A DNA stretch of 64,000 bases, taken from contig NC_007677.1 in NCBI RefSeq assembly GCF_000013045.1, forward strand, positions 806,001 to 870,000, written 5' to 3'. Shown here piece by piece: positions 39,071-39,933 of the stretch. A program made the translations under genes and the position numbers. Numbering within the stretch: the first letter of the stretch is position 1; every line of letters starts with the position of its first letter. The DNA is from Salinibacter ruber DSM 13855 (GTDB lineage Bacteria > Bacteroidota > Rhodothermia > Rhodothermales > Salinibacteraceae). Below the pieces are notes generated by a model. The model saw only the letters and a list, made by a program, of their open reading frames with translations, was not told where the DNA came from and did no database searches.

Positions 39071-39206
39071 GGAACAGTTGGTGTTCAGAACGTTTGCGGG
39101 CAAATTGTCCTTCTGAACAGATTGTCCTTCCGAATTGTCTGGAGAGACGAGGCTGACCGAACTGGATGCAGTAAATGTTAGAGTTCTGTGTAGAACCGAA
39201 CGGGCG

Positions 39207-39235
39207 TTGACATCCGTGCCCGCGTGCCGTACTGT
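39207..39235 (+). promoter_or_regulatory. Candidate sigma-70-like promoter
   Basis: TTGACA at 39207-39212 and TACTGT at 39230-39235 are separated by 17 bases. The start of transcription would fall just before the leader ATG (39245), giving a nearly leaderless message. Bacteroidetes promoters often differ from this consensus, so the call is tentative. Confidence 0.45.
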
Positions 39236-39244
39236 ACGGTAGCC

Positions 39245-39388
39245 ATGAACCGACGCGCTCTCCCATTCGCCATCCCGTCCGCGGCCAGCGCCTCTGTCGG
39301 CGCGGCCGAAGGCCGCTGTGCCTTTGCCCGCTTCTATCTGGGCTACGTGTATGTCTATTTTTATCTCTGGACGGCCGGCGGCTCGTAG
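39245..39388 (+). CDS. Aromatic-rich leader peptide
   Basis: A 47-residue frame ending in a concentrated aromatic run: FARFYLGYVYVYFYLW, with five Tyr, three Phe and one Trp codons, then TAGGS-like residues TAGGS and stop TAG. It lies 137 bases before chorismate mutase, the branch enzyme for Phe and Tyr, and 24 bases before a strong terminator. This is the arrangement of pheA/pheST-type attenuation leaders. Scarcity of charged tRNA-Tyr or tRNA-Phe would stall the ribosome here. A hairpin GCGGCC-GAA-GGCCGC lies within it (39301-39315). Confidence 0.7.
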   Translation: MNRRALPFAIPSAASASVGAAEGRCAFARFYLGYVYVYFYLWTAGGS

Positions 39389-39450
39389 CGCGCGTACCCT
39401 CTTGTTGTTGCACCCCGCCGGTCGATCGCCTTCGGCCCCGGCGGGGTTTT
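39374..39450 (+). terminator. Attenuator: terminator with competing antiterminator
   Basis: CCCCGCCGG (39413-39421) and CCGGCGGGG (39438-39446) form a nine-pair stem followed by TTTT (39447-39450), an intrinsic terminator ahead of the chorismate mutase gene. CCGGCGG at 39374-39380, just after the aromatic codons of the leader, is complementary to CCGCCGG in the left terminator arm. It could form the competing antiterminator when a ribosome stalls upstream. Confidence 0.7.
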
Positions 39451-39525
39451 CGCATGTGTGGGCCGATGGCGCCGCGCCCGGTGGGTCCCCAGACGCATTC
39501 TGACCCCCACGCCAGCGACCCATCC

Positions 39526-39933
39526 ATGTCCACGTCTTCCAGCCCAACGACCGTGCCGGAGGCCCGCGCCCGCATCGACGAGATCAACGAGCGGGTCGTG
39601 GAGCTGCTCGCCGAGCGGCAGGCCATCGTCGACGACCTCTGCGAGTTGAAGGCCGACGCTGACCGCACCGTGCGCGACCCCGAGCGCGAGGCCGAACTGC
39701 TGGCCCACGTCCGGTCGGTGGCGGACGAGGCGGGCCTGCCGCCCACCCTCGCCGAGACCCTCTTCGAAGAGATCCTGGCCCACTCCGTAGAGCGCCAGCG
39801 GCGTCAGCGGGCCGACGGGGCTGCGGGTCCGTCCGCCGAGGAGTCGTCCGCCGAGGAGCTGTCCGCCGAGGAGCCCGCGGAGAAGGCGACCGGGGCCGTC
39901 TCCACGTGTGGGGCGCAGGCGCAGGCGGGGTAG
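39526..39933 (+). CDS. Chorismate mutase (AroQ class)
   Basis: A 135-residue protein whose first 95 residues are an AroQ helical bundle: ARARIDEINERVVELLAERQ, VDDLCELKADADRTVRDPER and a final helix ending LFEEILAHSVERQRRQ. It converts chorismate to prephenate, the entry to Phe and Tyr. The last 35 residues are a low-complexity acidic tail with repeats SAEESSAEELSAEEP, as in many halophile proteins. ATG 39526 is preferred to the upstream ATG at 39454, which lies in the leader-terminator region. An attenuator-like leader precedes it. Confidence 0.8.
   Translation: MSTSSSPTTVPEARARIDEINERVVELLAERQAIVDDLCELKADADRTVRDPEREAELLAHVRSVADEAGLPPTLAETLFEEILAHSVERQRRQRADGAAGPSAEESSAEELSAEEPAEKATGAVSTCGAQAQAG

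Follow-up and report, generated by a model that had tools for sequence, protein, structure and literature searches.

A conserved candidate leader-peptide attenuator with Phe/Tyr codons upstream of chorismate mutase in Salinibacter and other Rhodothermales

The region upstream of the chorismate mutase (CM) gene of Salinibacter ruber DSM 13855 contains a short open reading frame with a Phe/Tyr-rich end, an intrinsic terminator and an antiterminator that competes with it. From its sequence and its conservation, this element is very probably a ribosome-mediated transcription attenuator, which would sense the charging of Phe- and Tyr-tRNA and control chorismate mutase. The window, that is the whole stretch of 64,000 nucleotides that was analysed, corresponds to G000:C1:806001-870000, and belongs to a genome of 3.587 Mb in two contigs. 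The features of the element are shown in Table 1.

Table 1. Features of the CM leader region (positions within the window).
Feature	Position	Strand	Remarks
Sigma-70-type promoter	39207..39235	+	-35 TTGACA 39207-39212, 17 nt, -10 TACTGT 39230-39235
Leader-peptide ORF, 47 codons + TAG, Phe/Tyr-rich end	39245..39388	+	ATG predicted to be near-leaderless
Putative regulatory codons F27-W42 (FARFYLGYVYVYFYLW)	39323..39370	+	Tyr codons mostly TAT
Antiterminator 5' strand GACGGCCGGCGG, within last leader codons	39370..39381	+	Pairs with 39415-39424
Intrinsic terminator: hairpin 39412-39447 + U-tract	39412..39450	+	5' arm doubles as antiterminator 3' strand
Second conserved hairpin adjoining CM start codon	39480..39525	+	39480-39487 pairs with 39517-39525
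Putatively regulated gene: chorismate mutase of AroQ type (CM_2), 135 aa	39526..39933	+	Pfam CM_2 E 5.2e-21

The leader ORF, read directly, is translated as MNRRALPFAIPSAASASVGAAEGRCAFARFYLGYVYVYFYLWTAGGS. Its C-terminal end is FYLGYVYVYFYLW, with GGCCGGCGG immediately 5' of the stop codon; the last codons read FARFYLGYVYVYFYLWTAGGS-TAG, and 23 nt separate them from the terminator hairpin. The 16 residues from F27 to W42 include eight Phe/Tyr codons and one Trp codon. Direct reading agrees in this with the preliminary description of the region, which had also placed the start of chorismate mutase at 39526; Pfam finds a CM_2 domain in the product of that gene. The leader ATG is 9 nt 3' of the -10 and is predicted to lie about 1-4 nt from the RNA 5' end. 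An alignment of 15 sequences shows no variation in TTGA-A-TC of the -35 or in TA...T of the -10. Between the -10 and the ATG there are 9-10 nt in every one of the 13 Salinibacter genomes and 5-10 nt in most of the other loci. The near-leaderless promoter had been regarded as an oddity of this region; the conserved spacing argues otherwise, as do the leaderless small mRNAs reported alongside putative leader peptides in C. glutamicum (PMC4046766). A generic promoter and terminator scan detected neither the promoter nor the terminator of the CM leader, and missed the promoter because TACTGT agrees with TATAAT at just three of six positions. Two other motifs were observed 5' of the leader promoter. 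One, similar to ATGTKAGNNTTCTGTGTAGA, is located at window positions 39175-39195, about 11 nt 5' of the -35; it is kept in most Salinibacter loci, is absent from L011, L012, L027 and L029, and is possibly an activator site or an UP-like element. The other is a palindrome-like GAAGCGCTTCC or AAAGCGCTTCC, a possible operator, in L030, L033, L034, L035, L009 and L010.

Codon usage in the leaders differs from that of control genes. The Tyr codons of the genus leaders are 48 TAT and 11 TAC, versus 3 and 51 in five control genes of this genome, and the Phe codons show a smaller skew, with 32 TTT and 16 TTC versus 17 and 46, although Fisher p-values for these biases overstate the evidence because the leaders share ancestry. 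The TAT bias may reflect starvation sensitivity or avoidance of RNA structure; it has been argued that the sensitivity of an attenuator is set by codon choice (PMC1183508). Trp was considered as the regulating residue and rejected: within the genus, the Trp codon of this leader recurs in just one close relative, TGG being found only in L001 and L002.

The GC stem and U-tract that had been noticed downstream of the leader form a terminator hairpin of -26.4 kcal/mol, versus a mean of -16.4 for shuffled sequences (z -3.3). RNA from 39362 to 39428, without the terminator 3' arm, folds instead into an antiterminator hairpin (-29.0 kcal/mol, z -2.5). The leader as a whole is structured and GC-rich (z -2.1), and in its full-length fold the antiterminator strand is paired with upstream leader RNA, which may bear on the pause (1:2) hairpin that serves to synchronise ribosome and polymerase in ribosome-mediated attenuators. 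This strand, within the last codons, mimics the terminator 3' arm, so that the end of the leader competes for the terminator 5' arm, as in ribosome-mediated attenuators, and the two pairings are mutually exclusive. The preliminary description had proposed a pairing of CCGGCGG with the left arm of the terminator. The pairing holds, but the sequence is at 39375-39381, not at 39374-39380, and is part of the longer strand given in Table 1.

In the alignment of 15 sequences, the antiterminator shows 136 of 144 cells paired (slid controls 13-55%) and the terminator 132 of 135 (slid controls 33-60%). GC pairings are cheap because the background is GC-rich, and under a synonymous-recoding control the antiterminators of single species were mostly not clearly stronger (p 0.01 to 0.66, L028 excluded). 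Since this control is weak for each single species, a permutation between genomes was used: among 15 diverse representatives, pairing of the leader end was on the whole better with the terminator arm of the same genome than with the arms of other genomes (p=1.4e-4). Compensated antiterminator changes are found in L007, L028 and L038, of which L028 and L038 are the clear cases. Counted from the first base of the final aromatic codon, the antiterminator strand starts after 4-14 nt; it ends 2-27 nt short of the leader stop (4-5 nt in the genus). The starting distance of 4 nt in L001 and L002 is due to their non-conserved Trp, and becomes 10 nt when counted from the last Tyr. Taken with the general footprint size of a ribosome, this spacing roughly matches the ribosome leading edge, and the strand would be free during a stall at the aromatic codons and masked once the ribosome reaches the stop codon.

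These elements suggest the following mechanism. Transcription would begin at or just 5' of the leader ATG, and ribosomes would load on the 5'-terminal AUG. With plentiful Phe and Tyr, the ribosome would reach the UAG and cover GGCCGGCGG, the terminator would form, and transcription would end before CM. With scarce charged tRNA-Phe or tRNA-Tyr, the ribosome would stall within YVYVYFY, with its leading edge just short of GGCCGGCGG. The latter could then pair with CCGCCGGTC, in the terminator 5' arm, which would block the terminator and allow the transcription of CM. Either Phe or Tyr may be the dominant signal.

Salinibacter, which refers here to the 13 genomes of the genus of the window, is placed in Rhodothermota. 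Each of these genomes has one CM match with the same upstream element (13/13): a leader of 38-48 codons with the aromatic run, a TAG or TAA stop codon and a terminator. The element is also present 5' of CM-containing genes at 13 further Rhodothermales loci (L027-L039). Their leaders have 26-52 codons and differing N-termini, two of them with a GTG start, but the aromatic run, the GC-rich end and the terminator are similar. Thus, all 26 loci have a Phe/Tyr run ahead of the CM-containing gene and a hairpin with a U-tract between the leader stop codon and that gene. Mean identity in the 15-sequence alignment is 56%, and sites that clearly exceed it include the promoter core, the start codon, parts of the aromatic run, CCGG(C/T)G and the terminator arm CCCGCCGG. 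The promoter and its near-leaderless spacing, the aromatic run, the stop codon, the terminator and the competing antiterminator are kept, whereas the N-termini diverge. A comparison of relatives had been proposed as the test of an attenuation reading, and the retention of run, stop codon and both pairings within and beyond the genus supports that reading, with the exception of Trp as a signal. At 20 loci of the order that contain a divergent CM homologue no convincing aromatic leader was found, so the CM leader is not universal in the order. Neither a scan of the window nor a lax scan of the element gave a credible Rfam match: no leader or riboswitch family, T-box and enteric amino-acid leaders included, reached its gathering score.

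No CM_2 gene other than the one at 39526 was detected in the genome. PDT is encoded there by a gene lacking CM, and a DAHP synthase of type II is present, but no type I enzyme was found. No leader was seen at the PDT, type II DAHP synthase and leuA-like genes. A search of the same genome with the leaderless-promoter pattern gave five matches, and the other four do not combine a recognisable leader with a biosynthetic gene. In relatives, the targets of the leader are always enzymes of the Phe/Tyr pathway. According to Pfam, the protein behind the leader is CM alone in L029, CM-DAHPS in L027 and L028, and CM-PDT-ACT in L031. L030, L037 and L038 each show, behind an aromatic leader, a single protein containing CM, PDT with an ACT domain and type I DAHP synthase. 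In L032-L036 and L039, DAHPS motifs were recognised by eye.

The trpE gene of the same genome has a near-leaderless leader, MIDKSGITSFGWWLWRPSLRVESPMRA, with antiterminator and terminator. This leader (GWWLW) is at L054:1221-1385, about 2064800-2065000 of G000:C1, outside the window. Trp-codon leaders were recognised at 12 of the 12 Salinibacter trpE loci fetched and at eleven other loci of the order; in the L082 trpE locus the terminator pattern was not parsed. Since trpE carries a near-leaderless attenuator with Trp codons in the same genome, the two exits from chorismate appear to have a pair of attenuators. A broader scheme, plausible but rather short of probable, is that Rhodothermales have matched leaderless attenuators at both exits: one for Phe/Tyr, at CM alone or at CM-DAHPS, CM-PDT or CM-PDT-DAHPS, and one for Trp, at trpE. 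In this scheme the CM leader would sense Tyr and Phe, favouring the rare UAU, and Salinibacter would add the hairpin at the CM start, a single leader thus giving two layers of control.

That hairpin bears on a different explanation, in which control is mainly translational: the hairpin would hide the CM start site and the terminator would set a constant level. Its five-pair core is paired in 93.8% of cells (12 distinct Salinibacter sequences and L027; slid controls 43-62%), with one truly covarying pair (CG/UA/GC/UG), and its single-sequence fold in this species is not significant. However, the distant loci with the attenuator, in which CM sits close behind the U-tract, showed no such hairpin, and it leaves the aromatic run unexplained, which makes control of mainly this kind very unlikely. 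The hairpin could act additionally to attenuation, and extra translational control of the CM start site may be taken as a lead only.

It is also highly improbable that the ORF is the gene of a small functional protein, with the hairpin as its ordinary terminator and another promoter for CM. The terminator does lie between the ORF and CM, the encoded end is hydrophobic and aromatic, and in most of the family the ORF has 38-52 codons, enteric leaders being shorter. But no promoter-like site was found between the terminator and CM, and the protein sequence of the N-terminal half is poorly conserved, with ORF lengths from 26 to 52 codons, while the aromatic run and the antiterminator are kept. Moreover, the ORF is always directly 5' of CM-containing genes, and the sequence of its final codons is complementary to that of the terminator 5' arm. 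Direct sensing of aromatic amino acids by a riboswitch or by a protein-binding leader, the ORF being incidental, would agree with the structured, GC-rich leader. Conservation, however, tracks the reading frame and the aromatic codons and reveals no aptamer, several relatives have leaders of just 26-32 codons with little room for one, and the lack of an Rfam match extends to the T-box, so this possibility is extremely remote. Ribosome-mediated attenuation is the reading that we prefer.

The preliminary description had considered such control rarely described in this phylum, and this seems fair: a literature search that covered few subscription journals found no such attenuator described for Salinibacter or Rhodothermota. 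For the neighbouring phylum Bacteroidota there are the Bacteroid-trp motif (RF01692), listed as cis-regulatory in PMC2864571, and the leader-peptide attenuation suggested in F. psychrophilum (PMC9723704). Both resemble the Salinibacter element as cis-regulatory leaders of amino-acid genes; they differ in that no Phe/Tyr leader at chorismate mutase was found described for them, and the Salinibacter element is without an Rfam match. The element would extend classical leader-peptide attenuation to Rhodothermota, conserved across an order, and its Phe/Tyr leader accompanies the chorismate mutase domain through changes of fusion partner. In a near-leaderless attenuator, the start of the race between ribosome and polymerase would differ from the E. 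coli model, and together with trpE it offers a testable scheme for the split of chorismate between Trp and Phe/Tyr.

The gammaproteobacterial pheA and pheST of E. coli, the former encoding a CM-prephenate dehydratase, likewise have a leader rich in the regulating amino acid and a terminator/antiterminator switch; their leaders contain Phe codons only and are preceded by a ribosome-binding site. Both pheA (pheL) and pheST are classical leader-peptide attenuators (PMC11802643). The Salinibacter leader, by contrast, has more Tyr than Phe codons and a near-leaderless start, and it precedes a CM that has no fusion partner. All attenuators of C. glutamicum are reportedly leaderless, and aroR itself is said to be so. 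The aroR/aroF system is similar in having Phe/Tyr leader-peptide codons before an entry enzyme of aromatic synthesis and in being ribosome-mediated (PMC4046766; PMC11802643). It differs in its Phe-Tyr-Phe codons and in responding to Phe and not to Tyr (Neshat et al. 2014, as described in PMC11802643). It also controls DAHP synthase rather than chorismate mutase and belongs to another phylum, and no sequence similarity is claimed. On the comparative evidence, the predicted Salinibacter attenuator is real but of a kind already known, and the novelty lies in the phylum, in chorismate mutase being the target, in a run rich in Tyr and in the pairing with an attenuator at trpE.
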